Of a stretch of DNA of 23,406 nt, positions 7,593 to 23,243 are shown one piece after another. A program made the translations under genes and the position numbers. This DNA is from a virus. The notes beneath the pieces are model-generated. The model saw only the letters and a program-made list of their open reading frames with translations. It made no database searches and was not told the origin of the DNA. How positions within the stretch are numbered: the first letter of the stretch is position 1; every line of letters starts with the position of its first letter. The stretch covers positions 1 to 23,406 of IMG/VR virus record IMGVR_UViG_3300005913_000097, one strand, 5' to 3'.

Positions 7593-7609
7593 ACCAAATA
7601 GATAAAAAT

Positions 7610-8137
7610 ATGAAAACAATAAACTTTAAAGACAAACAATACCCCGCATTGCAAGCCGAAGGATTCGCTAGTCAGTATGCCTTTCTGTTCGCTAATACCT
7701 TATTAACCGGATTTGGTGTGGACATCGGGTACGGTAAGCCTGAATGGAAGTTGCCCAAAGCGGTCGGTATTGAATTTGGAAAGTGGATGCCCGATGATAG
7801 GCACGAATGGATAGAATCCGACGTAAGCGCGACTAACTTCAACTGTGACCCGCTAGACTATTTATTTTCTTCGCACTGCTTAGAACATCTTGCGGATTGG
7901 GTTGGTGTGTTGGACTATTGGGGAGAGAAGTTGAAGTCGGGAGGTGTCATGTTCTTGTACCTACCCAATGCGGATTACCAAGAGTACTGGCGGCCTATGT
8001 ATAATCGTAAGCACGTAAATTGGCTCACGCCGCACATGTTAGAAGCCTATTTCAAAGGGCGGTCTTACACAAATATTTTTGTTACGCAAGGGTATGACTT
8101 GAACGGGTCTTTTTACGCGGTAGCTGAAAGGGTATAG
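7610..8137 (+). CDS. class I SAM-dependent methyltransferase
   Basis: Starting at ATG 7610 the protein has 175 residues. The nucleotide-binding loop is GFGVDIGYG (residues 34-42), followed by a second strand ending in an acidic residue (AVGIEF, 51-56), an acidic SDV segment (70-72), and motif IV plus helix (DYLFSSHCLEHLADW, 83-97) with SGGVMFLYLPN. This is the Methyltransf_11 style, with EHL typical of sugar or small-molecule methyltransferases. An alternative ATG at 7574 overlaps the RHH gene and adds unstructured sequence. The glycosyltransferase starts 3 nt downstream, so its substrate may be a glycan or sugar nucleotide (inference). Confidence 0.78.
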   Translation: MKTINFKDKQYPALQAEGFASQYAFLFANTLLTGFGVDIGYGKPEWKLPKAVGIEFGKWMPDDRHEWIESDVSATNFNCDPLDYLFSSHCLEHLADWVGVLDYWGEKLKSGGVMFLYLPNADYQEYWRPMYNRKHVNWLTPHMLEAYFKGRSYTNIFVTQGYDLNGSFYAVAERV

Positions 8138-8140
8138 ATT

Positions 8141-9475
8141 ATGAACATAGGTCTGCTCATAACGACCCACAACCGCCCAGAGTATTTAGCCCGAACGCTA
8201 GAGAGTTTAAGCAGGGCTGACTTGTGCGGGGCAGAGATTCTGATCGTAGATGACTTTAGTACCAACAGAGAAACGCTTCGCATGTTGAAGGGTCGCATGG
8301 TAACAAGGCTTCCTAGGAACATGGGCGTTAGGCATGCCCTATGCATAGGGTTTGACAGACTTCTCAGCAGGGGGCATGATGTGCTGGTGAACTTGGATTC
8401 GGATGCTGTGGTAAGGGCTGACTTTCTAGTAACGCTCTTGGCTCTGTATGAACAGTTTCCAGATCATATTATTTCGGGGTTCAATACCCTAACCCCTTCT
8501 GCCCGTACAGGACAGCCGAGGCACCCTATCCTATCTTGGCACGAAGGGTATGTGCGAAAGCATTCCATCGGGGGGTTGAATATGTTACTCTCCGCTCAAA
8601 CGTATCAGGACATTGTACGGCCAGCCCTGATAGAATCACAAAGCACAAAAAAGGATTGGGATCGGATTGCTTGCAGGATGAGCGCAGAGCAAGGCAAGGA
8701 TATAATTGTGGCAAGCCCATCGGTGGTGCAGCACATTGGGTTCACCTCTGCGATGGGGCATGCTGATAACCCCGATGTGGCGGATGACTTTGTGGACGAG
8801 TACAAGCAGAAGATGTGCGTACTGCAGCCACATGGCTTGGGGGATATTATATTTTGTCAGACCTTGGTGCGCTCCTTCATGGCCGAGTATGAGATTACGT
8901 GGGCGGTGCATCCCGATTGGGTAGAAGGGTTAAGCGGGGCATACCCTGACATTAATTGGGTTACGGTCAGTCCTGTTAGCTTAGAGGTCAAAGAGGATAA
9001 GTATGTTAATGGGTATCACACCTTACCTATTCGGTGGAGCGATACCATCATGAAAGTCCCCTACCGCTCGGTGATGGGTGCTAAGTACGGTATGTACGGG
9101 CAAGACTACCTCTCATGGACGGATCAAGCGATGTGGGTCAGGAACAAAGCTAAAGAGGATGAGCTGTTTGAACTGCTCGGCTTAACCGGTAAGGAGTACG
9201 TATTGAAGAACACACACTTCAGCGGCGGAGAGATAGCGATAGCGATAGCAATAGGGGTTCAGGGCGTAGCGATGAGGCAGATTGACGGGTTCAGCTTGTT
9301 TGACTGGGCTAAAGTGCTAGAGAACGCCAAAGAGATTCACACGGTAAGCACCTCCCTACTATTCGTATTGGGGCTGCTGTCTACGGGGCCTGTTTATGTT
9401 TACACCAGAGGCACTAATAAAAAGCATGATGAGTATGACTATCTGTTTACGCCCGGCAGGTTTAACTTTCAGTAA
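8141..9475 (+). CDS. two-domain glycosyltransferase (GT2-like N-terminus, GT9-like C-terminus)
   Basis: This 444-residue protein has residues 4-95 carrying GT-A / GT2 hallmarks: LLITTHNRPEYLARTLESL, ILIVDDFSTN, NMGVRHALCIGFD and a DxD in VLVNLDSDAVV (D86-x-D88). From residue 225 a second domain begins with VLQPHGLGDIIFCQTLVRSF, like the N-terminal loop of GT-B heptosyltransferase-type enzymes, and ends with IDGFSLFDWAKVLENAKEIH then TVSTSLLFVLGLLS, a GT-B nucleotide-sugar-binding style. It may therefore carry out two sugar transfers or use one domain for recognition. A short (GCGATA) repeat encodes IAIAIAI near residue 365. It overlaps the next, antiparallel gene by 14 nt. Confidence 0.8.
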   Translation: MNIGLLITTHNRPEYLARTLESLSRADLCGAEILIVDDFSTNRETLRMLKGRMVTRLPRNMGVRHALCIGFDRLLSRGHDVLVNLDSDAVVRADFLVTLLALYEQFPDHIISGFNTLTPSARTGQPRHPILSWHEGYVRKHSIGGLNMLLSAQTYQDIVRPALIESQSTKKDWDRIACRMSAEQGKDIIVASPSVVQHIGFTSAMGHADNPDVADDFVDEYKQKMCVLQPHGLGDIIFCQTLVRSFMAEYEITWAVHPDWVEGLSGAYPDINWVTVSPVSLEVKEDKYVNGYHTLPIRWSDTIMKVPYRSVMGAKYGMYGQDYLSWTDQAMWVRNKAKEDELFELLGLTGKEYVLKNTHFSGGEIAIAIAIGVQGVAMRQIDGFSLFDWAKVLENAKEIHTVSTSLLFVLGLLSTGPVYVYTRGTNKKHDEYDYLFTPGRFNFQ

Positions 9476-10028
9476 CGCCGCAGTCCCTATTCGGAGCAAA
9501 CACAACCGGAATAGGGACGAACGTAAGCCTTACCTTGCACGCCACATTTCTTATCCAGTGGTAATCTGCTGCGCCTACGGAGCCATCGAAGTCAACTAGG
9601 GGGGCGTACCGTGCGTGGAGGAACAGGCAAGGCATACCTATTTTGCCTCTGACTATACGCTTGTTCTGGATGTAGTGCGTAGGTGGTTTAAGCCTGCCCC
9701 CTCGTGAGAATTGGCAGATTACGCCATTTGAGTTCTTGAGGTGCTTGGATAATAGAGGTAGCGAATTTGGGATGATCGTATCCCCCTCATCCAAGAACGC
9801 AAAATACCCTTCGGTGACTAATGCTTTGAGGTCGTTGCAGTAGTTATCATAGAAGAAAGGTATAGGAGACTTATAAACACGAATCTTTTGAATAGGAGCG
9901 GGTATGTAGCTCAAAGCCCGCTCATCATCATACGAGCAGATAACGGTTACGTTAGGTGGGATTGATGCTAGTGTGCGTTTGAATCCTTCTGGTCTGTAAC
10001 TGCACCTTATTAATAGAGTTATTTGCAT
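9462..10028 (-). CDS. GT2-like glycosyltransferase, antiparallel to its neighbours
   Basis: This 188-residue protein begins MQITLLIRCSYRPEGFKRTL, a GT-A nucleotide-binding strand and helix. It continues with VTVICSYDDERAL and FAFLDEGDTIIPNSLPLL, where LDEGD (79-83) stands in the DxD position, and has a late acceptor-side segment (SVGAADYHWIRNVACK). It is shorter than usual GT2 enzymes but covers the catalytic core. It runs leftward between two rightward genes, converging on the larger glycosyltransferase with a 14-nt 3' overlap and diverging from the Stealth-like gene. A TATATTTA box lies 7 nt before its ATG. Confidence 0.75.
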   Translation of the reverse strand: MQITLLIRCSYRPEGFKRTLASIPPNVTVICSYDDERALSYIPAPIQKIRVYKSPIPFFYDNYCNDLKALVTEGYFAFLDEGDTIIPNSLPLLSKHLKNSNGVICQFSRGGRLKPPTHYIQNKRIVRGKIGMPCLFLHARYAPLVDFDGSVGAADYHWIRNVACKVRLTFVPIPVVFAPNRDCGVTES

Positions 10029-10053
10029 AATTCAGTAAATATAATTAGTTTTG
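10022..10053 (+). promoter_or_regulatory. promoter TTTG-N20-TAGTTTTG
   Basis: TTTG at 10022-10025 and a perfect TAnnTTTG at 10046-10053 are spaced 20 nt apart, drive rightward and give a leader of about 25 nt before ATG 10085. The -33 element lies inside the 5' end of the divergent glycosyltransferase gene. Confidence 0.6.
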
Positions 10054-10071
10054 ACATATAAAGGTGTCAAA
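10050..10071. promoter_or_regulatory. inverted repeat TTTGACA-N8-TGTCAAA (probable operator)
   Basis: A perfect 7-bp inverted repeat overlaps the end of the -7 box and the start-site region of the rightward promoter. The TGTCA half-site is shared with the repeated TGTCATAC sites upstream of the RHH gene at 7395, so the same repressor might act at both (inference). Confidence 0.5.
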
Positions 10072-10084
10072 CCACATAGGAAAT

Positions 10085-10780
10085 ATGAATGTAGTAATCC
10101 CCCTTACAAAATCGAAAACGGACTTCTTAGACTTGCGCTATGTATTAAGAGCGATAGAACGTCACGGGCAGAACGTAGGCGAGATTTTCATCATTGGGGA
10201 GAGACCGCAGTGGATTAAAAATGTTAAGCATATTCAACAAGAAGATAACCCAAGAAAGGAATGGAAAGAGCGGAATATTTACCTCAAAGCTAAAGCAGCG
10301 TTTGACTTTACTGACCGCTATTTATTTATGAATGACGACCATGTATTACTAGCTGATACAGATTTGGAAAATTACCCAAACTACTACAAAGGTACGTGCT
10401 ATCAAAGTATGTTGAAGAACAGTTCGCATTACAGGCAGACGATGAACCAAACTAAGAAATGGTTAGATTTCAACCACTACCAAGATAGGAGCTTCGACGG
10501 GCACTGCCCCTTGATTATGGAGAAACGTCGGTTCTTGAGTACTATGCAGAGAGCAGATTGGACTCAAGAGTTTGGCTACGGAATGAAGTCACTCTACTGC
10601 GCAGGACTTGAGGGGGAGTATATGCTTGACGGGAAGATAAGTACAAGAGTAGGTTTGGCTAAGGCGAAGCAGGCTTGCAGCGGCAGACACGTAATCAGTT
10701 TTACCGATGCTGCGTTACTGTCAGGACTAGGTGAGCATTTCGCTGATATATTTAAAGAGAAGAGTAGGTATGAAATTTGA
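10085..10780 (+). CDS. Stealth-like sugar-phosphate transferase family protein
   Basis: I prefer ATG 10085 (231 residues; MNVVIPLTKSKTDFLDLRYV) over an in-frame GTG at 10064 inside the operator. An N-terminal strand (VVIPLTKS) is followed by LDLRYVLRAIERHGQNVGEI then FIIGERPQWIK. The core motif is DRYLFMNDDHVLL (NDD at 83-85), then FDGHCPLIMEKRRF around H140. The NDD and later H-x-P patterns match the conserved regions of Stealth proteins (capsule hexose-phosphate transferases) and related GT-A-like folds. The Stealth-type assignment is by motif, not by full-length alignment. It probably modifies a surface or phage glycan together with the two glycosyltransferases. Confidence 0.6.
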   Translation: MNVVIPLTKSKTDFLDLRYVLRAIERHGQNVGEIFIIGERPQWIKNVKHIQQEDNPRKEWKERNIYLKAKAAFDFTDRYLFMNDDHVLLADTDLENYPNYYKGTCYQSMLKNSSHYRQTMNQTKKWLDFNHYQDRSFDGHCPLIMEKRRFLSTMQRADWTQEFGYGMKSLYCAGLEGEYMLDGKISTRVGLAKAKQACSGRHVISFTDAALLSGLGEHFADIFKEKSRYEI

Positions 10781-10853: not shown

Positions 10854-11071
10854 AAATAATATGCTAGATAAAATTAAAGCTCAAGAAGCCCTAATTAGTA
10901 TGTACAAAGAGTATGTGCGATTGTTAGGAGACGAACTTAATGAATTAACCCCCTTAGCACACGTCCATGGATGGAAAAGCCACAGGGCTGAGGATGGGCA
11001 ACTGTTAAGAACTAAGATTCAAAATGCAGAAAGTACACTGTTTAAAACCAAAAAATAATATGCTAGATAAA
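10852..11071. repeat. 21-bp perfect direct repeat at two gene starts
   Basis: The same 21 bases occur at 10852-10872 and 11051-11071, covering an A-rich leader, the ATG and the first four codons (M-L-D-K) of both the 65-residue gene and the first co-chaperonin gene. The interval between copies is 199 bp, exactly one gene. Recombination between them would delete or duplicate the 65-residue gene cleanly. Confidence 0.9.
10861..11058 (+). CDS. conserved small phage protein of unknown function
   Basis: This 65-residue helical protein has YKEYVRLLGDELNELTPLAH then VHGWKSHRAEDGQLLRTKI. The segment (EYxxLLGxEIxxLxxLAHVHGWxSxRxxxGxxxRxKI) is one I recall from many Bacteroidota and other phages, often near head-gene chaperonins. 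No function is known. It is separated from the following co-chaperonin gene by a single base and shares its 5' end sequence with it. Confidence 0.75.
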   Translation: MLDKIKAQEALISMYKEYVRLLGDELNELTPLAHVHGWKSHRAEDGQLLRTKIQNAESTLFKTKK

Positions 11072-11320
11072 CTAAAACCAGCCGCAGGGAGAGTGGTAGT
11101 GTTGCCCGATGCGGCAGCAGATAAAACGCAAAGCGGTATTTTTATACCTGAGATTGGAAAGCAACCCCCTTCAAGCGGAGTGGTTACTCACGTTGCCGAA
11201 GGTGACACGCTCTATAAAGTAGGTGACCATGTGCTGTTCGTTAAGAACGCAGGAGTTGAACTGACTTCTACCCCAGTGCATTTCTTGATGCGAGAAGACG
11301 ATATTTACGCTACAATTTAA
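11060..11320 (+). CDS. GroES-like co-chaperonin (first copy)
   Basis: From ATG 11060 this is 86 residues with a Cpn10 layout: LKPAAGRVVVLPDAAAD, a mobile loop with KTQSGIFIPEI, then SSGVVTHVAEGDTLYKVGDH and VLFVKNAGVELTSTPVHFLM with a terminal REDDIYATI. This is the usual order of barrel strands, mobile loop (GIFIP) and C-terminal strand. It should cap a GroEL ring; no GroEL gene is seen, so it would use the host's. An upstream ATG at 11024 lies within the previous gene and is rejected. Confidence 0.85.
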   Translation: MLDKLKPAAGRVVVLPDAAADKTQSGIFIPEIGKQPPSSGVVTHVAEGDTLYKVGDHVLFVKNAGVELTSTPVHFLMREDDIYATI

Positions 11321-11326
11321 ATAGTT

Positions 11327-11944
11327 ATGCAATTAAACGCAAACATCCCCTACGTGAGGGCTTTTGTTAGAAACTGTTATTTATTTTCAGATAAAAATAA
11401 CGAAGATTTAACGGAGTGTTACCTATTCGGTGTTAAAGCTATTATAAATAGGCCGCTTCTATTCCACGCTCAACTTGATAATGGCGCAGTATTTTGGTCA
11501 CTGCCGTTAGCTGCTTTTTGTCAAAATTCAGAATTTGACAGAATTGATGCAGATGAGGGTAAAAGATTGTCTATGTTGCAATATTGGGACATGCAAGGAA
11601 ACGATATTTCTGTAACCGTGTTCACTTACTTGCAAGGTTCAAATGTAGAGTGCAAAAGGAGAGATGGAAAATGTATTGCAGGGACGTATATTTTTACAAT
11701 TGACGATTATTATGCCGATAATAACGCATTGCCATCGGGTTATGCCGTAGATAGCGATAGTAAGTGTTTTCACATAATCAGAGGTGAAGATGGGAACTTT
11801 TACGGCTACCCTAACAACTATTTAAAATGGCATAATTTGAATTTTGTAGAAATACCTGATAAATTTCCAAGTTACAAGGCGATTAGTTTTACAGGGAAAT
11901 CAGAGCATATAGCAGTAGAGGAGGAATTAAATGCTACAATTTAA
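11327..11944 (+). CDS. widespread phage protein of unknown function
   Basis: This 205-residue protein has YLFGVKAIINRPLLFHAQLD, AVFWSLPLAAF, LQYWDMQGNDISVTVFTYLQ, CIAGTYIFTIDDYYADNNAL and FYGYPNNYLKWHNLNF. I recall this order of blocks (GVRSxxGRALxFxxxLExGAxxxxLPxxAL, LQLWDCFxxxxxVxxxxxL, GxYLFTVDWY, YPNNRxxW) from many phages of unrelated hosts, always uncharacterised. It probably works in phage development rather than defence. It interrupts the co-chaperonin pair and is flanked by a 12-bp direct repeat. Confidence 0.75.
   Translation: MQLNANIPYVRAFVRNCYLFSDKNNEDLTECYLFGVKAIINRPLLFHAQLDNGAVFWSLPLAAFCQNSEFDRIDADEGKRLSMLQYWDMQGNDISVTVFTYLQGSNVECKRRDGKCIAGTYIFTIDDYYADNNALPSGYAVDSDSKCFHIIRGEDGNFYGYPNNYLKWHNLNFVEIPDKFPSYKAISFTGKSEHIAVEEELNATI
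11919..11924 (+). promoter_or_regulatory. strong Shine-Dalgarno (AGGAGG) for the second co-chaperonin
   Basis: AGGAGG lies 6 nt before ATG 11931. Such sites are uncommon in this window, where leaders are mostly A-rich. It falls within Glu codons of the upstream gene, so chance is possible. Confidence 0.45.
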
Positions 11945-12173
11945 CCCCGTAAAAGGAAAAGTCTTAATCCGGAAAGATAAGATGGAGGACACCACCGCAT
12001 CGGGCATACTGATAGGTAAGAGCTCGACCGGAAGGTGCGTTACTGCAGAAGTGGTATCGGGCGAAAGGGCAGGCGAGCGCATTGTCTTCACGCCCGGCAT
12101 CAGCAACGCTTTTGACGTGGGCAGCGAGCAGTTGACAGTTATTTTTGAATATGATATAATTGCTTATTTATGA
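11931..12173 (+). CDS. GroES-like co-chaperonin (second copy)
   Basis: This 80-residue protein with Cpn10 architecture reads FNPVKGKVLIRKDKMED, a mobile loop (TTASGILIGKSS), CVTAEVVSGERAGERIVFTP and a C-terminal strand ending EYDIIAYL. It differs strongly from the first copy, so it is not a recent duplicate; it may cap a different surface or substrate. It overlaps the upstream gene by 14 nt and the next by 4 nt. Confidence 0.82.
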   Translation: MLQFNPVKGKVLIRKDKMEDTTASGILIGKSSTGRCVTAEVVSGERAGERIVFTPGISNAFDVGSEQLTVIFEYDIIAYL

Positions 12174-12448
12174 AGTATAGAAAAAAACCAGTAGAAATCG
12201 AGGCTGTACAGTACCTCGGGTTTAACAAGACAGAGATTGACGAGTTCGTAGGTAATATCCTTTCTCGAAAACTAGAAAGTGAGACTGCGTACTTAGCGGG
12301 AAAGGGGGCACCGATGTTTAGCCTTATCATTCCAACATTAGAAGGAGATATGAAAGCTCAGCATGGGGATTATATAATTAAAGGGGTTAAGGGGGAGTTT
12401 TACCCGTGCAAACCTGATATTTTTGTGCTTACTTATGAAAAAGTATGA
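12170..12448 (+). CDS. conserved phage protein (KPV...[20 protein letters not shown] family)
   Basis: This 92-residue protein begins [17 protein letters not shown] and ends [20 protein letters not shown]. This N- and C-terminal signature is very common in phages of many bacteria ([14 protein letters not shown] ... [25 protein letters not shown]); its function is not established to my knowledge. The length is usual for the family. It is coupled to both neighbours by ATGA overlaps. Confidence 0.8.
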   Translation: [92 protein letters not shown]

Positions 12449-13296
12449 TAAGTATAAAAAACATAAAAATACCTTTCAGTTACGTCTTACTTAAATTAGA
12501 TCGTAATTTTGAAAGCTATCAATTCGGGGGGAAGGAGACTAACATCATAGCCCCTACCTATGCGTACAAAGGCAAGGACAGAGTGGACACTAAGCATTTG
12601 AACTTGGCCACCACTGGAACTGTTTATGGCGCGCCCGACAAAATACGCTTCACAAGAGAAGACATCAAGAAAATCAAAGCCTCCATTGTCACCGAGCGTG
12701 ACGGACAGAACGCTTTAGCCGATGCTTCGCTACTGTACAAAATAAACCAATTGAAGGATGCCGGGTGCCGGTTCGAGACAGAAAACGAATTAGTAGTTGG
12801 AGACCATGTGAAAGTGGCTTACCAAGTCCACATGAAAGCACAGTTCTTCGATACGCAGGAAGGTGACATGTGTTTCGTCAAGTATGACGATATATTTATG
12901 ACCACGGATGGGAAGATGGTCAATGGCTATATTCTGGTTGACCCTGAGCTTAGAGATACAGTTAAAGAGAACGGTATGAATTACGCAACCTCTGCGACTG
13001 GACTTGTTCTGCCTAAACTGGGTGAGACCTACAAACGAAGCGCACGGTGGGCACACGGGAAAGTGGTTCACGCGGGTAAGAAAATAAGCGGATACTTCGA
13101 CCAAGCAGATTACCAAGACGAAGATATTGGGGTAACGCCTGGTGACAAGATTATATTCGACCCACGTACCGCACTGCGCTACGAGATGGATACCCACATG
13201 GCTCTGGCGGACAGACGGCTTTATCTCATCCAACGTAAAGATATTTTGTTCTTTGAGAAAGAGAATCCTAACTTTGCTTCATTATGTACGATTTAA
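12445..13296 (+). CDS. tandem GroES-like co-chaperonin with two Cpn10-type domains
   Basis: This 283-residue protein's first domain runs from about residue 8 (KIPFSYVLLKLDRNF) through an extended loop (20-60) to GDHVKVAYQ and VKYDDIF (119-151). The second starts about residue 160 (VNGYILVDPEL), has a clear mobile loop (ATSATGLVLPKLGE, 181-194), a VVHAGKK strand, TPGDKIIFDP and a C-terminal RKDILFFE. It therefore looks like a duplicated Cpn10. Such large co-chaperonins are known in some phages (T4 gp31 is a single-domain analogue) for folding big capsid proteins. It lies four genes before the head genes, including terminase, and overlaps the next gene by 13 nt. Confidence 0.75.
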   Translation: MISIKNIKIPFSYVLLKLDRNFESYQFGGKETNIIAPTYAYKGKDRVDTKHLNLATTGTVYGAPDKIRFTREDIKKIKASIVTERDGQNALADASLLYKINQLKDAGCRFETENELVVGDHVKVAYQVHMKAQFFDTQEGDMCFVKYDDIFMTTDGKMVNGYILVDPELRDTVKENGMNYATSATGLVLPKLGETYKRSARWAHGKVVHAGKKISGYFDQADYQDEDIGVTPGDKIIFDPRTALRYEMDTHMALADRRLYLIQRKDILFFEKENPNFASLCTI

Positions 13297-13877
13297 GTAA
13301 GTGCTATATAGATATCAGTGCTCTTGCAATAGGCGAGAAGGTTTCGGATAAATATCCCGAAATAACATCTTTCTCCGAATTTATGGAGTGCAGTAACGAC
13401 ATGGTTAAAATAGCAATTCTGATAGGCGATGTTGACAGTCCGTTCGTCCGCATCAAGGACAGAGAGGTTATGTTCAAGGCTATATTCGATTATCTAGGCC
13501 TCGACACTAAAACCCACCAATCCATGCTCGGTAAGTTAGTGGCTTACAGACATCCTCTGGTCATGGGGGCTTGGTTACGTTACATGCAGATTTTACATGA
13601 GACAGATTTCACCGATTGGAGCTTAGCTCGTAAAGATTATGATTTCTTCCTATCTCAAACGGATGATGTGAAAATGACTAAAGAAACAGACTTGGCGTTC
13701 TATAAGCGTAAGAACGAAGCTAGAGACAGAGTACGTGAATTAGGGCAAGAAGTTAGGCGTATAGAGGCTAAGTTATTTCCTGACAGTAAGGCGGCTAGAG
13801 AAGCGGCCATAATCGCCAACAGCTTAAAAATAAAGTTGTGGGCCGAGTCCTATGCTGAGAGTAATACTTATATTTGA
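13284..13877 (+). CDS. hypothetical protein, possible small terminase subunit
   Basis: This 197-residue, mostly helical protein's C-terminal half has charged coiled-coil-like sequence (FYKRKNEARDRVRELGQEVR then RIEAKLFPDSKAAREAAI). It lies just before the large terminase gene, where many tailed phages encode the small subunit, whose usual traits (150-200 residues, helical, oligomerising coiled coil) it shares. I see no clear HTH, so this is a positional inference. Confidence 0.4.
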   Translation: MYDLSKCYIDISALAIGEKVSDKYPEITSFSEFMECSNDMVKIAILIGDVDSPFVRIKDREVMFKAIFDYLGLDTKTHQSMLGKLVAYRHPLVMGAWLRYMQILHETDFTDWSLARKDYDFFLSQTDDVKMTKETDLAFYKRKNEARDRVRELGQEVRRIEAKLFPDSKAAREAAIIANSLKIKLWAESYAESNTYI

Positions 13878-13883
13878 TATAAC

Positions 13884-13940
13884 ATGTACAACACTACGGT
13901 TTGCTGGAAAGATAAAATGCCGGAGGAAATGCTAATATGA
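13884..13940 (+). CDS. 18-residue leader frame overlapping the terminase start
   Basis: ATG 13884 reads MYNTTVCWKDKMPEEMLI and stops at TGA 13938-13940, overlapping the terminase ATG as ATGA. The same TGGAAAGATAAAAT stretch (encoding W-K-D-K) occurs in this frame (13905-13918) and in the terminase N-terminus (13946-13959). It contains GGAGG ahead of the terminase start. It may be a coupling leader or simply a remnant. Confidence 0.3.
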   Translation: MYNTTVCWKDKMPEEMLI

Positions 13941-16138
13941 TAAAGTGGAAAGATAAAATATCTAAAGACGGCAAGTACATAGATATGAGGGGGTTGCCGT
14001 ATTACACCATGCGATTCGGTAAGAAGTCGGAAGTCGTAGAAGTGTACGAGTACAACACCATACTGCCCGAAGCCCCCCCTGACGACCATTGCGTAGGTTA
14101 CAACCTGCCCGTAGCGCAGCAAGTATTTTACAGGACAGAGATACCCAAGCAAGTGCGATTCCCTGAAAAAGATTATGGGAGAGAAAATTGGACGCCTAGC
14201 GAACTAGAGCCCTTCATTGACGCTGAGTGGAACAGAAGAAGGCAAGGAGTTTGGATGTTTATCAAAGGAAAGAAAACCTACATACCTGGTTTATTATACG
14301 TGAAGATGAACTATTGGAGAGCCCTAACGGGTGTCGAGTTCATCTACCGATTTTCGGATTGGGAATTTGCGGTATTCTGGTGCATTGAATGTGTACTCGA
14401 CCCAAAGTGCCTAGGAATGACCGATTACAAGTGTAGGCAGGTGGGGGATACGGAATGGGCTGTACTTATTTTATGGGAGTATGGTAGCAGGGTGCGAGGA
14501 ACTTTGAATGCAAATCAATCCTGCATCAATGAGGGGCATGCTGTAAAAACGTACAAACGATTAGTGTACGGGCATAAGAACATGATTTATTACTTCCGAC
14601 CACTTAACCAAGGAACGGAAGATCCAAAGAAGGGGTTGAACCTAAGTTACCCTGCGCAACACATCACTTACGCAGCGGTAAAGAATCGGAACGAAGAAGG
14701 GCAGATGGGTAATAAGAGTTCTCACGACGATTACGAGTATCCAGAGGTCGGTAGCCAATTCTACTACGGACCATCCAAGGTCAGTGAGTTTGACGGTACT
14801 ACGCTCGGTAGAGCCTATCTCGACGAGCATGGTAAATCAGACGGTAAAATAAACCCTGCAGAATGGATTCAGGTTATCAGCGAAGCGTGCTACTCTAACA
14901 TCACGCAGCGCAAAATGGGTATGATACTAATGACAACTACGGTAGAAGAGATTACGCCCGAAGGTCTTGAGTGGGCGCAGACTATTTGGAGGGAAGCCGA
15001 TCCCGCAGAAATGCAGAATGGTCGCACTACCAACGGCCTTAAACGGTGCTTCCGAAATGTAGTTGCCAGAGGTGAGGTTGACCAATGGGGCTTCCCTTAT
15101 GCAGAAAAGATAATAGCCGGAATAAAAGATACTTACAACGCGATGATCCGAGCAGGGAACATGAAAGGGGCAATAAGCTACCTCCGTAAAAACCCTATTG
15201 ATATTGATGATGTGTTTAGGTCAGCTTCCAACGAGAGTCAATTCCACATAGAGAACTTGCAAAGAAGAGAGTTCTATCTGAGCGAAGTAGCCAATCCTAA
15301 GCCTTGGGGCAGAGGCAACTTGAAGTGGAAGGACGGCATAGCTGATACTGAGGTTATATGGGAGCCAAATTCCAAAGGTAAATGGGTCATATCGAGGCAC
15401 CCGCATGACTACGAGCTAGAGACCAATAAACGGGTAACTACTATAAGCGCAAACAAACCTGGTAACTCTAGGTATTTTTGTTGTGGCATTGACCCTATCG
15501 CTCAAAAAGACACCCTTGAAAAAGAGCCATCTAAAGGCGCAATAGTTATCATGCGTAAGATGGACAAAGATGTAGATGTTGCAGAATCGCTGTATTACCA
15601 ATTCAATGACGAGATAAGAGGTATAGTGAAGGGGTCGCCCGTTAATAACGGTAGTGAGTTTGAGACGAATAGAGTTATTTGCACCTACATGGAGCGACCC
15701 TCTGACCCTGCTGAGTTTTTCGAGGACGTAATCCTTTCCGTCGTTTATTACGGCACCGATTTTCTTCCGGAGAAGAACAGCTACGGTGGGTTAAGCGCTT
15801 ATCTGACTCTAAGAGGCTACAATCTTTACGAAATGGATAAGCCGACAACTGTCAAGAACTACAAAGGGCAGTCTGAAAAAGGGGGGGTTACTGCTACGGA
15901 AGGGAGTATAAATATGTGTTTTGACTTTATAACTACCTATACTTGTACAATGGCTAATGCGATTGACCACCCCGATTTGTTGGCGCAACTACTAACTATG
16001 AACTGGAACAACCGCGGAAAGCGAGATTTAGGTATGGCATTTGGGTGGGCTCTCTACGCCAATCTACAGAAAAAACCAAGGTGGCACGGCGATAAGCAGA
16101 AGCAGATTGTACAACATTATACAGAATATCACGTATAA
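13937..16138 (+). CDS. terL: terminase large subunit (packaging ATPase and nuclease)
   Basis: This 733-residue protein is the DNA-packaging motor and headful/cos nuclease. ATPase part: the P-loop region reads YKCRQVGDTEWAVLILWEYG with the aligned P-loop at K165-T172 (RQVGDT, where D171 replaces the usual lysine; K165 may substitute), Walker B is RAYLDEHGK (D296, E297), and the coupling motif is MILMTTT (T333-T335). Nuclease part (RNase H fold): first acidic strand CCGIDPI (D519), a middle acid near D608/E612 (TDFLPEKNSYGG), and a late Asp at RDLGMAFGWAL (D697). Length and motif order fit. The start is ATG 13937, overlapping an upstream stop. It probably acts with the portal at the procapsid vertex. 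Confidence 0.9.
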   Translation: MIKWKDKISKDGKYIDMRGLPYYTMRFGKKSEVVEVYEYNTILPEAPPDDHCVGYNLPVAQQVFYRTEIPKQVRFPEKDYGRENWTPSELEPFIDAEWNRRRQGVWMFIKGKKTYIPGLLYVKMNYWRALTGVEFIYRFSDWEFAVFWCIECVLDPKCLGMTDYKCRQVGDTEWAVLILWEYGSRVRGTLNANQSCINEGHAVKTYKRLVYGHKNMIYYFRPLNQGTEDPKKGLNLSYPAQHITYAAVKNRNEEGQMGNKSSHDDYEYPEVGSQFYYGPSKVSEFDGTTLGRAYLDEHGKSDGKINPAEWIQVISEACYSNITQRKMGMILMTTTVEEITPEGLEWAQTIWREADPAEMQNGRTTNGLKRCFRNVVARGEVDQWGFPYAEKIIAGIKDTYNAMIRAGNMKGAISYLRKNPIDIDDVFRSASNESQFHIENLQRREFYLSEVANPKPWGRGNLKWKDGIADTEVIWEPNSKGKWVISRHPHDYELETNKRVTTISANKPGNSRYFCCGIDPIAQKDTLEKEPSKGAIVIMRKMDKDVDVAESLYYQFNDEIRGIVKGSPVNNGSEFETNRVICTYMERPSDPAEFFEDVILSVVYYGTDFLPEKNSYGGLSAYLTLRGYNLYEMDKPTTVKNYKGQSEKGGVTATEGSINMCFDFITTYTCTMANAIDHPDLLAQLLTMNWNNRGKRDLGMAFGWALYANLQKKPRWHGDKQKQIVQHYTEYHV

Positions 16139-16142
16139 GCTA

Positions 16143-16170
16143 TTGCATTTTAAAATTTTTACTACCTTTA
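16143..16170 (+). promoter_or_regulatory. promoter TTG-N17-TACCTTTA before the portal gene
   Basis: TTG at 16143-16145 and TACCTTTA at 16163-16170 are 17 nt apart, within the usual spacing. The transcript would have a leader of about 10-12 nt before ATG 16189. Confidence 0.5.
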
Positions 16171-16188
16171 TAACAAAAAATTCCGTAA

Positions 16189-18618
16189 ATGGCGAAGAAA
16201 AGTTTAGAGCCCAAGGACTATAAAGGTAAGACCTACGCTTACCCGCCTGACAATATTGACCCTAAAAAGAAATTAGATAAGCAATATTATATAGATGTTA
16301 ATCACGCGCTTTATGCCGATTATATAAACAATAGGATGTTTGTCCCCTATGGAGAGACAGGCGCAGGGCGCAGTATCGAGGAGCTGCAACTATATGCACA
16401 AGGCAGGCAATCTCCGAATAAGATTAAGAAGTGGTTACTTAAAAAAGACCCAAACAACGAAGAGAATTTCATCACTAAGATGAACGTATCCTATGACGGG
16501 TACGCTAAACTCCCTCAGCTCTTGGACATTATGCGCTCGCGTAATATGAACCAAGAGTTCGACGTTCGGTTAACGTGTATTGATGAGGAAAGCACGGCTA
16601 CGATTGAAGCGACTCGCCAAATGATGAAGTTCATCGTAGCTGAAAATACGCAGGAGTTCTTAAAGACTTCGATGTATAAACCAGATGCACAACCGAACCC
16701 CCAAGAATTGGGGCTGAAAACAGCAGAAGATGTGGACACCTACATCGAATCTGGGGGATTTACTCTCCAATGGCAAATCGCAGCAGAAGCCGCTTGCGCC
16801 AAGTCGAAAATGGAATCCTACTACAAGATGTTCCAAGATCAAGTCATGGATGATTTGATTACTAACCCAAGTGGCATTTGTGGTTCAAAAACTTGGATTG
16901 AGAAAAGTACAAAAATACCTAAATTCCGAAGAGTTGATATGCGCATGGCGTTAGTCCCTGCCTCGATTTACCGAGATTTCAACGATATTACAAGGGCAGC
17001 GGAAATCCGCACGATGACCATGACGGACATCTCTCGGGAACACCCGCATCTTACGCCTGAACAGATTTTCGACATTGCACTTACTTTCCGATGGATGAAC
17101 CCACCGCTGATGAGCCTCGGCACAGGAGGTTACTCGAATTGGTACAACTCTTCCACAAGGTTCACTTCGGCTGACCCCGTAATGTCCGCACGCATATTCG
17201 TCTTGGATAGTCAATGGCTATCGGTAGACTCGCAAGTGACATTGAAAAACGAACGGGGGTTATACAAGAGTGTGGACTTCGACTATAAGCTGACTGCAAA
17301 GGATGCAAAGAACGGCGACCAAAAAATACAAAAGAAAGTAATCAAAAAATATTATTCGCAGTGGATTATCGGATCTGACACGCTTCTGGATTACGGAGTG
17401 TGCGAAGATGTGGTGTACTACGGCGAAGACGGGAACAAAAGACCGAAGCTAGACTTCTTTTTTGCCCAAACAGGAAACATGAGCCTTGTCGAGCGTTGCG
17501 TAGCAATTATAGACGACATGAACATGATTTTGGTCAAGTACCGAAATGGTTGGGCGTCCCTACCCGCATCGCCGGCTATGGCTATCCAAAAAAGCTTGAT
17601 TGAGAATGTCATGCTCAACGGTAAACTGCAACAGCCGGAAGACATCATCACAACGCTTATTGAAAAAGGCGTATTGTTATACGATTCGCTTGACGACAAC
17701 GGAGATCCGCTGTTCATGGCAGGAGGGGCTAAGCCTATCGAGTACATGGACGTGAGTCGGATGGCCTCAGTCATGGCGGTGTGTTCAGCAGAATTAGTAG
17801 TGAAAGGCAATGAGCTAAGAGATGTTTTAGGACTTAACGGTGGCTCGGATGGCGGAGAAAAGAATCCGTACCAAGGGCTCGGAGAAACACAGCTTGCTTT
17901 TCAAGCAGCAAATGCCTCTTTGCAACCTACGTTCAACTCTTTTAACTACTTGTTCCGTAACATGTTCACGGACATTATTAAGAAGTGGCAGATTGTGGCT
18001 AAGGGCGGAGGTGTTAAGTTACCTTGGTCTGTGCTTGGTGAGCACAACATGAAGATGCTAGAACTTGGAAATCAGTTCACTAATATGGACTTTAACGTAG
18101 AAGTATCCATAGCCCCTTCTTCCGAAGAACGTGCGGCTATCCTGCAAAGTATCCTGCAGTTAAAGAACGAAAAGCAAATATCTTCTGCGCAGTATCTGTT
18201 CCTATACGAAAAAGTTATGGCGGGGCAGCTTAAAGCGGCTTACTTTAGAATGGCTAAGATTGAGGCGCAGAATGCCGCAGAGCTTCGTAAACAGCAGCAA
18301 GAGGACATCGGTTTAAACGCTCAGTCGCAACAAAATTCGCTCGTGGCAAAAGGTCAAGTGGATGGGCAACTGTTAGAGCGTAAAGGTCAGATTGAGACAG
18401 AGAACATTATGATTAAAGAGCTGATGGCTTCTAATCGTGAGCTACTTAACGAATTAGTTAAATCCCGTAAACCGGACGATATACCGCCAAATTCAGCACT
18501 CGCCATAACAACGGTTACGCAGAATACCGAGGATGTAGCAGAGCTTGTAATGGGGGAAGAAGAGCAACCACAAGAGCAAATACAACCCCAAAATGCAGAA
18601 ATGGCAACGATGCAGTAA
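16189..18618 (+). CDS. portal protein
   Basis: This 809-residue protein has the N-terminal part ALYADYINNRMFVPYGETGA, then RSIEELQLYAQGRQSPNKIK, a pattern I recall in portals of Bacteroidota phages including relatives of crAss-like groups. A long middle part includes VERCVAIIDDMNMILVKYRN, expected of the stem/clip region of a dodecameric ring. The C-terminal helical region is rich in Gln/Glu (LRKQQQEDIGLNAQSQQNSL then VAKGQVDGQLLERKGQIETE), like the barrel or tail-facing helix. It lies between terminase and scaffold/capsid, the normal gene order. The identity is by similarity of pattern and position. Confidence 0.8.
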   Translation: MAKKSLEPKDYKGKTYAYPPDNIDPKKKLDKQYYIDVNHALYADYINNRMFVPYGETGAGRSIEELQLYAQGRQSPNKIKKWLLKKDPNNEENFITKMNVSYDGYAKLPQLLDIMRSRNMNQEFDVRLTCIDEESTATIEATRQMMKFIVAENTQEFLKTSMYKPDAQPNPQELGLKTAEDVDTYIESGGFTLQWQIAAEAACAKSKMESYYKMFQDQVMDDLITNPSGICGSKTWIEKSTKIPKFRRVDMRMALVPASIYRDFNDITRAAEIRTMTMTDISREHPHLTPEQIFDIALTFRWMNPPLMSLGTGGYSNWYNSSTRFTSADPVMSARIFVLDSQWLSVDSQVTLKNERGLYKSVDFDYKLTAKDAKNGDQKIQKKVIKKYYSQWIIGSDTLLDYGVCEDVVYYGEDGNKRPKLDFFFAQTGNMSLVERCVAIIDDMNMILVKYRNGWASLPASPAMAIQKSLIENVMLNGKLQQPEDIITTLIEKGVLLYDSLDDNGDPLFMAGGAKPIEYMDVSRMASVMAVCSAELVVKGNELRDVLGLNGGSDGGEKNPYQGLGETQLAFQAANASLQPTFNSFNYLFRNMFTDIIKKWQIVAKGGGVKLPWSVLGEHNMKMLELGNQFTNMDFNVEVSIAPSSEERAAILQSILQLKNEKQISSAQYLFLYEKVMAGQLKAAYFRMAKIEAQNAAELRKQQQEDIGLNAQSQQNSLVAKGQVDGQLLERKGQIETENIMIKELMASNRELLNELVKSRKPDDIPPNSALAITTVTQNTEDVAELVMGEEEQPQEQIQPQNAEMATMQ

Positions 18619-18624
18619 AATAAA

Positions 18625-18657
18625 TTTGGATTTATCAATAATTAATACCTAATTTTG
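18625..18657 (+). promoter_or_regulatory. promoter TTTG-N21-TAATTTTG before the scaffold gene
   Basis: Perfect elements TTTG (18625-18628) and TAATTTTG (18650-18657) are spaced 21 nt apart. The -7 box ends 6 nt before ATG 18664, so the transcript would be nearly leaderless. The portal stop (18616-18618) lies just upstream, so scaffold and capsid could be boosted independently. Confidence 0.7.
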
Positions 18658-18663
18658 AAATAT

Positions 18664-19797
18664 ATGGAAAATGGATCAGAACTAAGGGCTATGCAGGTAG
18701 CAGCAGGATCACAAGGAGGGCAGGCTGAGGTAGTCGCTCCTATCGCTGAAATACCTGAAACTCAAGTCAGTGCCGAGATGGCCGTTGAGCAGACCCCCGA
18801 AGTAGAAATACCACCTGTAATTGAAGAGCAAGTACAGGAAACCCCATCATCAAGTGAACCTTATAATTACTGGCTTGATTTGGATTCAAAGACAGAAGGT
18901 ACTGTAAAGGATGAAGATTCTCTACTATCTCTGGTTAACAGAGGTAAAGAGTACGACGCATTAGTAGAAGAGAAGAAAACACTTTTCAAACCTGCTAATG
19001 AGTATATCTCCAAACTAAATGAGATGGCACTGTCAGGGGCGAACCCCGACCAAATTAAAGCGTTTGTGAAACTAAACGATTACGGCGATTTAGCGGCGCT
19101 CTCACCTATTGAACTGAAAGTAACCAAAATGGTACTTACGCAGGGGTATAGCGAGGACATAGCTAGAAAAATCGTCAATCGCGAATATGATTTGACTCAA
19201 TTTGACGAGGATTATGAAGACCAGAAAGACCAAGCGGACATCATGCGTGAGAAATTACGTATCGAGTCTAAAAGCGATTTGGTTGCCCTCAACGAATATA
19301 AAAAGGAACTGTCTGCGGTAAATAACCCTGAAAAGGAAAACGCCGAAAAAGCACAACTTCAGCGGATTGCTGATGCCTCTGCCTACAACAAGCAGGTAGA
19401 TGCCCAAGCACCGAACATTGCTAAGCACTTTCCTACTAAAATTGATTACGATTTTAAAGTAGGTGAAGACTCTGTGAAATACGAAGATGCTTTCGACAAA
19501 CAGTTTTTGGAGCAGGAATTACCCAAATTAGTAAAAGATTATTTCAAGGACAGCATGGACCCGGTTAACCCCGAGAACATTGGACTTGCTTATTCTTATG
19601 CTATGGGAGAGTACCTGAAAGCCAACGATAGCAAGAGGCTTGAAAAAGCCTTTCAGAAAGGTGACAGTGCAGGTTATGAGCGTGCAGTCAACAAGTACGA
19701 GAATCGTTCAGGCTTACCTAAAGCTCAGGAGAATCAAGTTATAGCAACAAACGAGTCAGGATTGGCGGAGTTTACAAAAATGATGGTGGGAAGATAA
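18664..19797 (+). CDS. probable scaffolding protein
   Basis: I start at ATG 18664 (377 residues); a TTG start at 18655 would fall in the promoter box. The first 75 residues are acidic and low-complexity (many E, V, P, Q), then long charged helices follow (DEDSLLSLVNRGKEYDALVE, DEDYEDQKDQADIMREKL, LQRIADASAYNKQVDAQAP). An acidic, Cys-free, helical protein between portal and major capsid protein is the usual profile of a head scaffold. There is no sign of a protease domain. The call is from position and composition. Confidence 0.7.
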   Translation: MENGSELRAMQVAAGSQGGQAEVVAPIAEIPETQVSAEMAVEQTPEVEIPPVIEEQVQETPSSSEPYNYWLDLDSKTEGTVKDEDSLLSLVNRGKEYDALVEEKKTLFKPANEYISKLNEMALSGANPDQIKAFVKLNDYGDLAALSPIELKVTKMVLTQGYSEDIARKIVNREYDLTQFDEDYEDQKDQADIMREKLRIESKSDLVALNEYKKELSAVNNPEKENAEKAQLQRIADASAYNKQVDAQAPNIAKHFPTKIDYDFKVGEDSVKYEDAFDKQFLEQELPKLVKDYFKDSMDPVNPENIGLAYSYAMGEYLKANDSKRLEKAFQKGDSAGYERAVNKYENRSGLPKAQENQVIATNESGLAEFTKMMVGR

Positions 19798-19828
19798 TTA
19801 ATCTCACTAATCTAAACGTAATAAAATT

Positions 19829-21346
19829 ATGTCAACAATCGACGCGGCAGGTATCGCTATGGCAGCAGGTACCACTCCCTCACACGTACAGGGTGTAGAA
19901 TCAGATCAGCTAATCTTCGGAACTGAGCTTCTACAACAAAACCCATTTATGCTGGCCGAGTATTTCCGCAACTACGGAAACTACTACACCACGCTAACTA
20001 AGTTGCTTCCGCTAATCGGTAAAACACCGAAGCGCAGAGTATCTTACAATCCGGTCACTTCGCATTGGGAGAAACCAAGAGTGAAAATGACTTTTACCGT
20101 AGGCAGTATTGCCGCCGGGGCAGAAGCAAACGAAGCGGTTATTACGCTTTCTGCTGACGACATGGCTAACGACAACGGGGTAATCAGTTCTTTACCGAGA
20201 ATCAAGGATACCATAGAGTTCGTAGCAGGCGGTCACATGTACCGCATCATCGCCAAAGACCGTTCAGTTAACCCGAATACGATTACCATCCAAGCGGACG
20301 AAACTGCTTATGACCCAATGAACGAAATCGTAGCAGGGTCAATTGGTAACGTGTTCTCAAACATTTCAGGTGAAGGTACAGGGCAGAACACTTCGCTCCG
20401 CCCACGTAGATACCAATACCAAAACACCTTCTGGATTGTGAAAGATACAGATGGCGTGACAGGTTCTAACCTGACTACTCAGGTTAAGTTCCAACCCGTT
20501 CCAGGCACTAACATGCTTTGGATGGAAGGTTTAAAGGACATGGAACTTCGCCACCAGTATCAGAAAGGTTCAACTTGGATGTTTGGTAAGCAGCCAACAG
20601 GATGGTCTGAAACTTCTACCTTTATGGAAGAAGAAGCAACCATTCGTGGTACTCAAGGATTACTTGATTTCATCAAGCAGTCAGGGTACGAGATGGAGAT
20701 TGACCCGAATAACGTAGATATCAACGATATTTACGCACTGTCGGCTTACTACTCATCTATCAACTTACCAACCAATGACATCGTTCTTGCGCAGGGTTAT
20801 AACATCAACCAAGCAATCGAGCGTTCGTTAGCTGATAAGTTGAACTACAACTGGGTAATCGGAGTTTCAGACAAATATGTGGCTGAGAATTTCAAGAAGA
20901 ATTGGGGCGCAACTATGGGCAGAGATTACAATCCAGAAGGAGCGTTCTTGAACATGGGCTTCAAAGGGTTCGCCCTTGGACAGTTCACGTACTTGCAGAC
21001 TGCAGCACCGGAGTTTAACAACGGTCAAGGCGCAGGAGCGATTGGGTACAAGGACTGGATGGTTGCACTTCCATTGGGAGACACTACTGTAACTGACGAT
21101 ACAGGTTTGGAGTTCCAGACTTCGTACTTAGGTTATGAGGTTCGTGGCTCTAACGGCTACACTCGTGAAGATGAGTTGTGGATGGAAGCAGGAGCAGGTA
21201 ACAGCTCTATCATCAGCACCAAAGCGCAGTTGGCTAAAACATCACCTATTGATGGTGTTAAGTTCTTCATACGCACCGAGATGGCACCACACTTCGCTTT
21301 AGGCGATCAAATGGCGCTTATCACTCCGAACGGAATTTCATCATAG
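19829..21346 (+). CDS. major capsid protein
   Basis: This 505-residue, Gly/Asn/Thr-rich protein has a helical N-terminus (FGTELLQQNPFMLAEYFRNY) and repeated short strands. Segments such as DTIEFVAGGHMYRIIAKDRS and TTLTKLLPLIGKTPKRRVSY are reminiscent of capsid proteins in Bacteroidota phages; a HK97 fold is probable but not shown. Its codon choice looks rich in common codons, as expected for a highly made protein. It follows the scaffold by 31 nt and is closed by a strong terminator 20 nt downstream, both typical. The co-chaperonins upstream may serve its folding. Confidence 0.85.
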   Translation: MSTIDAAGIAMAAGTTPSHVQGVESDQLIFGTELLQQNPFMLAEYFRNYGNYYTTLTKLLPLIGKTPKRRVSYNPVTSHWEKPRVKMTFTVGSIAAGAEANEAVITLSADDMANDNGVISSLPRIKDTIEFVAGGHMYRIIAKDRSVNPNTITIQADETAYDPMNEIVAGSIGNVFSNISGEGTGQNTSLRPRRYQYQNTFWIVKDTDGVTGSNLTTQVKFQPVPGTNMLWMEGLKDMELRHQYQKGSTWMFGKQPTGWSETSTFMEEEATIRGTQGLLDFIKQSGYEMEIDPNNVDINDIYALSAYYSSINLPTNDIVLAQGYNINQAIERSLADKLNYNWVIGVSDKYVAENFKKNWGATMGRDYNPEGAFLNMGFKGFALGQFTYLQTAAPEFNNGQGAGAIGYKDWMVALPLGDTTVTDDTGLEFQTSYLGYEVRGSNGYTREDELWMEAGAGNSSIISTKAQLAKTSPIDGVKFFIRTEMAPHFALGDQMALITPNGISS

Positions 21347-21449: not shown

Positions 21450-21617
21450 ATGCCTGCAAGTAAAATACAATTCAGCGAGGATGACTTCAACTTCATAAAG
21501 CAGTATAAAGATGCCAAAGGAATCTCTATGCAGCGTTTTGTGACTGTTGCCGTACAAGAATTGCGATTGAAATTGGAGGCTGAACAATACATAGAGGACG
21601 CTAAATTTAAAAAATAA
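21450..21617 (+). CDS. small ribbon-helix-helix (RHH)-like protein
   Basis: From ATG 21450 this is 55 residues: MPASKIQFSEDDFNFIKQYK, a turn (DAKGIS) and a second helix (MQRFVTVAVQELRLKLEAEQ). A strand followed by two helices of this spacing matches Arc/MetJ-type RHH proteins. A TTG start five codons upstream would overlap the promoter box. A strong terminator, its own promoter and a palindrome surround it, so it probably autoregulates the unit it leads. Its TAA overlaps the next ATG by one base (TAATG). Confidence 0.6.
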   Translation: MPASKIQFSEDDFNFIKQYKDAKGISMQRFVTVAVQELRLKLEAEQYIEDAKFKK

Positions 21618-22771
21618 TGATATTCATAGACGACGAACAAATAGCACCAGAGGTGCTGGCAGAGCGAATCGGTATTTCACCCGAGAAATATGCTCGAATA
21701 CTCAAAAAACCTATTTTCATGCTTGACGAATCTAAAGTCTTGAAGAAAAAAACGGTCAACTCTCCATTAGCCAAGAAAACCACTTACGGCATCATCACCG
21801 CTTTTTATGTGAAGATAAATGGGGTGTCTAAACGTATCAGGTACGCAGAGAATCAGATACCCCGATTTGAAGGGGGTGTAACAAGGTATGAGTATAAACC
21901 GGAGCGTATCAATATTGAGGGGCAGACCACGAACATGCTAAAGTTCCCTGATAAGGCTTTCTTCATGTTCATCAATCCGGGCAACCCGACATCGCCCTAT
22001 GCAGATCCGGCTAAAAAGAAATTTGCTTACATGGATTCAGTCGAAGTGACTGCAAAAGCTGCTGCGGAAATGGATAATATCCAGAAAGCGTTGAGCCATG
22101 CTACGCACATGGATGAGGATGAATTGGTGATTGTGGCTAAAGGGTTGCGTATCCTTACTTCGGACGACTACGAAATTGGAGACTTGAGAGTACGTTTACA
22201 ACAGTTTGCCATTAACCCTGCAACTAATAAGCGTTATGTACAAGCAATCGAAGATGAAATGGTCAGAGTGGAGGGTAGGATTGCTAACATGATTGATAAA
22301 GGTGTGTTCAAACTCCAAACACGCGGCAGTACCCGTCAGTGGGTTTGGGCACAGGGTGGTCGTGAGGGAGAGTTCATAGGCGATGCGCTGATGAACCCGA
22401 ACGAAGATGCTAAGCAGCGACTGTTTAACTTCATTAAGTCGAACCTTGGGCAGTACCTACCTGACTTGATGAACTCTACCGATACGCTACAAGCAGACCG
22501 TAAAGCAAGAGAAATATTGGCAGAGGCTAAACGGAATACCCCTGCTCCGACTATCGTACCCGATCACTTGGCAGCAGTTAACGCTCCGCCTCTTGGATTG
22601 AACGAGCGGCTGCGCACATTTGAAGACTTTAAGAACTTTGTAGCCAGTAAGGGTTACCCTAAAACTATGGTTCTGATTAAGGAGTTTATGACTGCTACTC
22701 AACAAGGTGTGGTCACGGATGCTAATGAGAATAGCTTCTTGATGAAATTATTTGAGAAGAAAGATGATTAA
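21617..22771 (+). CDS. hypothetical protein downstream of the capsid genes
   Basis: This 384-residue protein is of unknown function. The N-terminus looks like an HTH-like helix pair (EQIAPEVLAERIGISPEKYA). A beta-rich middle follows (TTYGIITAFYVKINGVSKRI then FEGGVTRYEYKPERINIEGQ), then helical, charged sequence and a C-terminal tail ending ANENSFLMKLFEKKDD. It is translationally linked to the RHH gene by a one-base overlap. Its position after the capsid gene suggests a head- or connector-associated role, but the separate promoter, operator and RHH partner also fit an accessory unit. Its 3' end is duplicated downstream (see repeat). Confidence 0.65.
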   Translation: MIFIDDEQIAPEVLAERIGISPEKYARILKKPIFMLDESKVLKKKTVNSPLAKKTTYGIITAFYVKINGVSKRIRYAENQIPRFEGGVTRYEYKPERINIEGQTTNMLKFPDKAFFMFINPGNPTSPYADPAKKKFAYMDSVEVTAKAAAEMDNIQKALSHATHMDEDELVIVAKGLRILTSDDYEIGDLRVRLQQFAINPATNKRYVQAIEDEMVRVEGRIANMIDKGVFKLQTRGSTRQWVWAQGGREGEFIGDALMNPNEDAKQRLFNFIKSNLGQYLPDLMNSTDTLQADRKAREILAEAKRNTPAPTIVPDHLAAVNAPPLGLNERLRTFEDFKNFVASKGYPKTMVLIKEFMTATQQGVVTDANENSFLMKLFEKKDD

Positions 22772-22830
22772 CGACTGCCCATACTATAAAAATATAGCCC
22801 TGGTCGGCTTTGTAAAAACCCCAATTGGTA

Positions 22831-23169
22831 ATGAATAATCCAAAAGTAATCGAAACTGTTATATATGGGGCAACTTATAAAATTCCAACCTACAAGGTAA
22901 CAAATAAAGGCCCCGAAGACGGTACAGGTGTTGAAATTATTTTCTGTAAGGGAAACAAAGAAGACGAAACGGTATTGCGACAAGAAGGTGTGTTTACCGA
23001 AACCTTAATCCAAACTACAAAACAGTATTTGGAAAGTGTAAATGTTGGCGAAATGGCTACAAGAGAAACATCAATGGTAATTACCAAACTTGATGAAGCT
23101 CTTATGTGGATTGCTAAAAGAGCAGAAGACAGAAAACTTAGAGGGGTTCAAGCAACTTATCAAAAGTAA
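22831..23169 (+). CDS. Acb2/Tad1-like cyclic-nucleotide sponge (predicted anti-CBASS / anti-Thoeris)
   Basis: From ATG 22831 this is 112 residues; a TTG six bases upstream is in frame but poor. Residues 35-112 match the core I know for Acb2/Tad1-type proteins: IIFCKG (37-41 region), EGVFTETLIQTTKQYLESVN, ATRETSMVITKLDEALMWI and AEDRKLRGVQATYQK. Compare the family pattern IxFQxG...NGVxxExLLxIxxxRL, FACREN...LxxLEEALxWL, RTxxRxxRGVEGT. Family members bind cyclic di- or trinucleotides, or gcADPR, and sequester the signal of CBASS or Thoeris defences. Here the conserved F-A-C-R-E-N is changed (M-A-T-R-E-T) and the N-terminal 34 residues are an unusual extension. There is no search or structure, so the name is a strong prediction. 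It lies 59 nt after the previous stop and may be independently acquired. Confidence 0.65.
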   Translation: MNNPKVIETVIYGATYKIPTYKVTNKGPEDGTGVEIIFCKGNKEDETVLRQEGVFTETLIQTTKQYLESVNVGEMATRETSMVITKLDEALMWIAKRAEDRKLRGVQATYQK

Positions 23170-23192
23170 TACCCATTGTGGTATCGTAGGAG

Positions 23193-23243
23193 GCTAATGA
23201 AAATAGTTTCTTGATGAAATTATTTGAGAAGAAATACGATTAA
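23193..23243 (+). pseudogene. remnant of the 3' end of the 384-residue gene
   Basis: This reads EANENSFLMKLFEKKYD-stop if the GAG just upstream (23190-23192) is included, nearly the tail of the gene at 21617-22771. A TAG stop directly upstream in frame (in GTAGGAG) and the lack of a start mean it is not translated as a protein of its own. It marks the right edge of the inserted segment. Confidence 0.8.

Follow-up and report, generated by a model that had tools for sequence, protein, structure and literature searches.

A divergent Tad1-family gene in a virus genome encodes a putative signal sponge with a probably shifted ligand range

The gene tad1 in the virus record IMGVR_UViG_3300005913_000097 is a real, well-supported, divergent Tad1, and the variant branch to which it belongs was previously undescribed. 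Herein, the whole 23,406-base stretch of DNA in this record is called the window. We read the gene product as a Tad1-family sponge, probably with a shifted ligand range, and assign this reading a probability of about 0.78. Tad1 sponges give a view of the alarm molecules on which bacteria rely. In the present branch, otherwise fixed residues of the pocket region were exchanged as a set and have since been kept, and the gene has spread among unrelated phages as a one-gene cassette, which makes the branch a testable case for the evolution of sponge specificity.

The open reading frame and its 112 residues are exactly as given in the preliminary description of this DNA, which was made from the sequence alone:

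22831-23169, + strand: tad1 gene, divergent Tad1-family putative sponge, 112 aa, ATG start, stop included (PDB Tad1 matches, phrog_2428, fold search, clade relatives)

A phmmer search of the PDB with the single window sequence recovered Tad1 chains at E ~1e-8, and a profile of the clade described below recovered them at 1e-11; with both queries the matches were Tad1 chains and one gp184, and no others. From a total of 113 distinct Tad1-family proteins collected, 89 homologs were aligned (alignment A3), and the family profile of these 89 reached CmTad1 at 1.5e-35 and CbTad1 at 5e-28. The window protein matched phrog_2428 (1.1e-14), the PHROG that also holds SBSphiJ7 Tad1 (8e-47), and full-length copies, 69-85% identical and with the same start Met, were found at seven IMG/VR loci. 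The Tad1 matches in the PDB, the phrog_2428 score and the seven copies argue that the motifs of this ORF are not due to chance. Those quoted in the preliminary description are indeed present (IIFCKG, EGVFTETL, MATRETSMVITKLDEALMWI and RKLRGVQAT). The Pfam Acb2_Tad1_hairpin model matched all eight A1 sequences weakly (best 2.7e-5), the window copy scoring 0.002, below the cut-off; PADLOC holds no model for the window protein, nor for validated Tad1. The protein is almost certainly a member of the Tad1 family.

An AlphaFold2 monomer model built on alignment A3 (pLDDT 82.7, pTM 0.69; mean pLDDT 63 for residues 41-50) has five strands followed by two helices, so that the Tad1 topology, an N-terminal antiparallel beta-sheet and then two long helices, is present in the prediction. 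In a fold search against the PDB, all 20 matches at E<=0.001 were Tad1 chains (TMq 0.60-0.78), including complexes with gcADPR and cA3, and the best was 7uaw, a complex with 1''-2' gcADPR (E 2.7e-7, TMq 0.72). Matches in a viral structure library were proteins named 'Acb2/Tad1 hairpin domain-containing'. Structure prediction, sequence searches and profile searches led to Tad1 and to no better unrelated family. The protein is divided as follows:

22831-22944, + strand: N-terminal beta-sheet domain, residues 1-38, with predicted strands at 8-11, 15-18, 21-24, 27-30 and 34-38 (AlphaFold2 model; topology in PMC12043709)
22945-22995, + strand: beta-to-alpha1 loop CKGNKEDETVLRQEGVF, residues 39-55; Q39 to C, N52 to E and a three-residue insertion relative to 80 other homologs (column comparison; low-confidence loop in the model)
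22996-23040, + strand: helix alpha1, residues 56-70; R66 to Y, and F/Y70 to V at its end (column comparison, model)
23041-23070, + strand: turn and MATRET motif, residues 71-80; F/Y75 to M, C77 to T, N80 to T; R78 and E79 retained (column comparison)
23062-23142, + strand: helix alpha2, residues 78-104, with the TKLDEALMW core and the invariant R97 and R101 (column comparison, model)
23143-23166, + strand: C-terminal tail GVQATYQK, residues 105-112; E107 to Q (column comparison)

A supposed 34-residue N-terminal extension had been offered as a ground for expecting another ligand. Neither point holds, since residues 8-38 form the five predicted strands of the ordinary Tad1 beta-sheet (PMC12043709). 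The ligand change that we expect rests on altered pocket-region residues, not on the N-terminal beta-sheet.

Next, we compared the alignment columns of nine clade members with those of 80 other Tad1 homologs. The clade members are 61-85% identical to the window protein, those at 67% and 61% coming from the family search, and they are carried by unrelated phages. Q39 (76/80 other homologs) is C in 9/9 clade members, R66 (64/80) is Y in 9/9, N80 (77/80) is T in 9/9, and E107 (73/80) is Q in 9/9. N52 (78/80) is E in seven members and S or K in the others; F/Y70 (68/80, the rest mostly L) is V in seven and N in two; F/Y75 (74/80) is M or L; and C77 (74/80) is T in seven and S in two. The counts at positions 77 and 80 agree with the earlier remark that MATRET stands where a FACREN-like segment was expected. 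The REN motif and the aromatics near the alpha1-alpha2 turn, a family tendency counted here and without published status as a criterion (77/80 and 68-74/80 homologs), are replaced in the window protein by RET, V70 and M75. Residues 48-50 are a loop insertion of the clade that is absent from the other homologs in the alignment; since a Tad1 subgroup with a longer GPLGRG-type loop was also found, loop length alone is not unique to the clade. Retained in 89/89 homologs are T85, K86, E89, A90, L91, W93, R97 and R101, and R78, E79, K96, R104 and V106 are retained with few exceptions. The divergence from the Tad1 norm is genuine and exceeds what the preliminary description noted.

In a tree computed without column 80, the clade forms one side of a branch with an SH-aLRT of 98. 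Position 80 changes three times on the whole tree, so N80 to T alone is not unique to the clade: RET, in which the R and E of the motif are kept as in the window, also occurs in a few homologs outside it, and N80 gave way to T or S elsewhere in the family, as in L115, which has RET beside its REN-type relative L116. Because this change arises elsewhere, it may be tolerated on its own without a new function. Against clade members, dN/dS was 0.06-0.10, a rough figure since dS is near 2 and close to saturation; it indicates that the protein is under purifying constraint and is not decaying. At an SH-aLRT of 92, the window clade is joined by two Tad1 homologs on long branches that carry RES/RET motifs (L031:4977-5363 and L074:4965-5336); they may be its sister group or a long-branch artefact. 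Among host genome contigs, clade-specific patterns matched no relative; with a wider pattern, ordinary Tad1 turned up in many phyla, with 0 clade members among the matches.

Characterised systems place these changes in context. CbTad1 of a Clostridium botulinum prophage (7uav, 7uaw, 8smd, 8kbe-8kbh) has the same fold and matches at a sequence E of ~1e-8 over window residues 35-110. The two proteins have in common the loop glycine, the motif R and E, the EALMW core, two helix-2 arginines and GT near the C-terminus; from CbTad1 to the window protein, PFSSRENA becomes EMATRETS, KSFQAG becomes ESVNVG, and the Q of FQKG becomes C. CbTad1 is also longer (125 aa), whereas its loop is shorter. Presumably, F82 and N92 of CbTad1 contact gcADPR, and they correspond to V70 and T80 here, with a one-residue PDB-chain offset. 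CmTad1 (8kbb-8kbd; apo, cAAA and cAAG complexes) likewise has the same fold (TMq 0.60-0.68) and a sequence match of 9e-7, and differs in its YKCRENAM motif, with 25% identity in the fold alignment. The C-terminal 60 residues of phiKZ-type gp184 (8y6v_I, 230 aa) match at E 0.005 with the single sequence and 3e-4 with the clade profile, in a protein twice as long; we take PDB 8y6v to be phiKZ. SBSphiJ7 Tad1, the founding anti-Thoeris Tad1 of a Bacillus phage, shares 45% identity over 60 C-terminal residues and differs in FNCRENAM and RLQYFQ, in its length of 142 aa and in a more extended N-terminal part. It blocks Thoeris in infection assays (PMC12043709). SBSphiJ7 belongs to the Herelleviridae, and a recombinase-like gene adjoins tad1 in related phages.

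The Tad1 pocket is reported to consist of the loop, the helix-turn-helix and the C-terminal tail (PMC12043709). Judged on the predicted model, the residues replaced in the clade appear to fall within these elements. By analogy with characterised Tad1, the window protein very probably works as a signal sponge. Its protomers would dimerise and probably assemble to a hexamer with ligand pockets between them, and the sponge would trap host-made alarm nucleotides without degrading them, namely the glyco-cyclic ADP-ribose of Thoeris and the cyclic di- and trinucleotides of CBASS. With the signal trapped, suicide effectors would stay off. Given sponge function, a shifted ligand range is somewhat favoured, since substitutions in the loop, alpha1-alpha2 turn and C-terminal tail arose together and the new residues stayed constant thereafter. 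The altered ligand preference, already raised in the preliminary description, is what we infer from the sequence. Such a shift would most likely be towards a different isomer or a different cyclic nucleotide, still within the same chemical class, and not a loss of binding. It is unlikely that the clade is a sponge retargeted to a signal outside the known Tad1 range, such as a TIR product or cyclic nucleotide that has received less study; if it were, the ligand would lead to a defence signal still without a matched sponge. The clade is a candidate for finding the signal that such a sponge answers, and at 112 aa the protein is easy to express and assay.

The main alternative, to which we give somewhat less than even odds, is an ordinary Tad1 in which drift with compensation accounts for the substitutions and the ligands are those of CbTad1 and CmTad1 (gcADPR, cA3 and cyclic dinucleotides). 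It accords with the retained arginines and TKLxEALxW core, with the independent recurrence of N to T at position 80, and with the report that divergent characterised homologs still share CTN and gcADPR binding (PMC12043709). Drift alone, however, explains poorly how eight near-fixed loop, turn and tail positions changed jointly and then stayed mostly constant.

The gene that encodes this putative sponge is itself accessory. The similarity of the DNA to the closest clade relatives runs from ~22830 to 23170, ending at the start and stop codons, and only in L004 does it begin slightly further upstream, from 22806. Three features mark the site:

21617-22771, + strand: preceding gene, 384 aa, after a putative major capsid gene; insertion-site marker, whose homologs in L016/L131 and L130 precede genes other than tad1
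22717-22771, + strand: direct repeat copy 1, at the 3' end of that gene; 50/55 positions agree with copy 2
23189-23243, + strand: direct repeat copy 2, past the end of tad1, a putative insertion scar; 50/55 positions agree with copy 1

This 55-nt pair flanking tad1 is the best in the window at that spacing range. The copies differ in four codons, 2/4 of the differences being synonymous, and the second copy looks as if it had formerly been coding. Two backbone relatives, L130 and L016/L131, align with the window across the head genes at ~66-73% DNA identity. In them the preceding gene is succeeded by one gene of 85 or 102 aa and another of 208 aa; tad1 is absent there, and no Tad1 match was found anywhere in these records (72.7 and 15.7 kb). 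The tad1-free site was judged from L016/L131, in which the neighbouring gene is ~61% identical, and from L130, in which it is comparable; a search of viral contigs with the repeat sequence for an exact empty site gave no match. As the similarity ends at the codons, a repeat flanks the gene and the backbone relatives lack it, tad1 is accessory cargo, a single-gene cassette that entered the window lineage. Its entry was probably a recombination event from which the duplicated host-gene end remains, a mechanism that we infer. A second record of the same phage, L132 (IMGVR_UViG_3300025601_000345), is 100% identical to window positions 13829-20817, and the shared stretch stops before tad1.

The clade carriers are contigs of 58, 71, 78 and 146 kb. 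Three of the four lack a homolog of the window terminase and the fourth has one that is 24% identical; L002 has a phrog_15 terminase near tad1, and that of the window belongs to phrog_6681. Several unrelated carrier phages would be expected if tad1 is useful cargo. Two unrelated carriers have HNH endonuclease genes within one or two genes of tad1 (L002:10663-11235, L008:9007-9624), which is only suggestive of a possible aid to its mobility. Cellulophaga phage phi18:3 (Pachyviridae) and Flavobacterium elemo phages have terminases ~24% identical to that of the window, which makes a Bacteroidota host likely.

Around tad1, candidates for a dedicated promoter or terminator did not rise above chance, and the RNA fold upstream is not unusual (z 0.02). 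Since neither element was detected, expression of tad1 may be late and may depend on read-through out of the head genes. This position directly after the head genes, together with the replaced key motif residues and the report that phiKZ Tad1 is injected with the virion (PMC13282480), would also suit a Tad1 fold that lost signal binding and took a new role, for example in the virion or in regulation. We consider this improbable, since R97 and R101 are retained along with most of the hairpin, and since tad1, unlike a structural gene, is mobile and missing from the backbone relatives.

An Acb2-type anti-CBASS sponge is hardly credible and is already refuted at the fold level: the Pfam hairpin model is common to both families and the second helix of Acb2 (T4 Vs.4, 7uq2; p26, 8h2j, 8ixz) is related through it (T-K-L-x-E-A-x-M-W), whereas Acb2 is an all-helical protomer of ~90 aa (a short N-terminal helix and two antiparallel helices) without a beta domain or REN/RET motif, T4 Acb2 (88 aa) having FAKNYAESLDQLTIAKTKLKEASMW instead, and the window protein has a predicted Tad1 beta domain, no Acb2 chain among its fold matches at E<=0.001, no Acb2 match with the single sequence or the clade profile, and an Acb2 homolog at E=0.57 only with the whole-family profile. 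Of the initial assignment to an Acb2/Tad1-type sponge with a divergent core, the superfamily and the divergence stood up to the sequence, profile and fold searches, and Acb2 gave way to Tad1.

Short hairpin-only proteins of 74-79 aa, with RETAMVKTKIDEALMW or an RDTAM motif, occur at L125:3846-4100 and L126:4151-4387, one of them on a Muribaculaceae contig. They match Pfam Acb2_Tad1_hairpin weakly, had no significant relative in the PDB, and are possibly an undescribed small hairpin group. The idea they raised, that RET is an Acb2-like state, was dropped, as T4 Acb2 lacks such a motif and neither protein has a significant Acb2 match in the PDB.

Elsewhere in the window, a 9-bp tandem array (1-179) underlies a Cys-rich CSDCSD hexapeptide repeat in a 105-aa open frame (1-315, - strand). 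Three GroES-like (Cpn10) genes stand in a row just before the terminase (11024-11320, 11931-12173 and 12445-13296, + strand), matching PF00166 at 4.9e-13, 1.8e-8 and 8.6e-4; the third encodes a 283-aa protein that matches in its C-terminal part. By eye, L008 also has a GroES-like protein (7067-7423). Adjoining methyltransferase, glycosyltransferase family 2 and Stealth-CR2-like genes (7574-10780) perhaps modify virion or host surface sugars.
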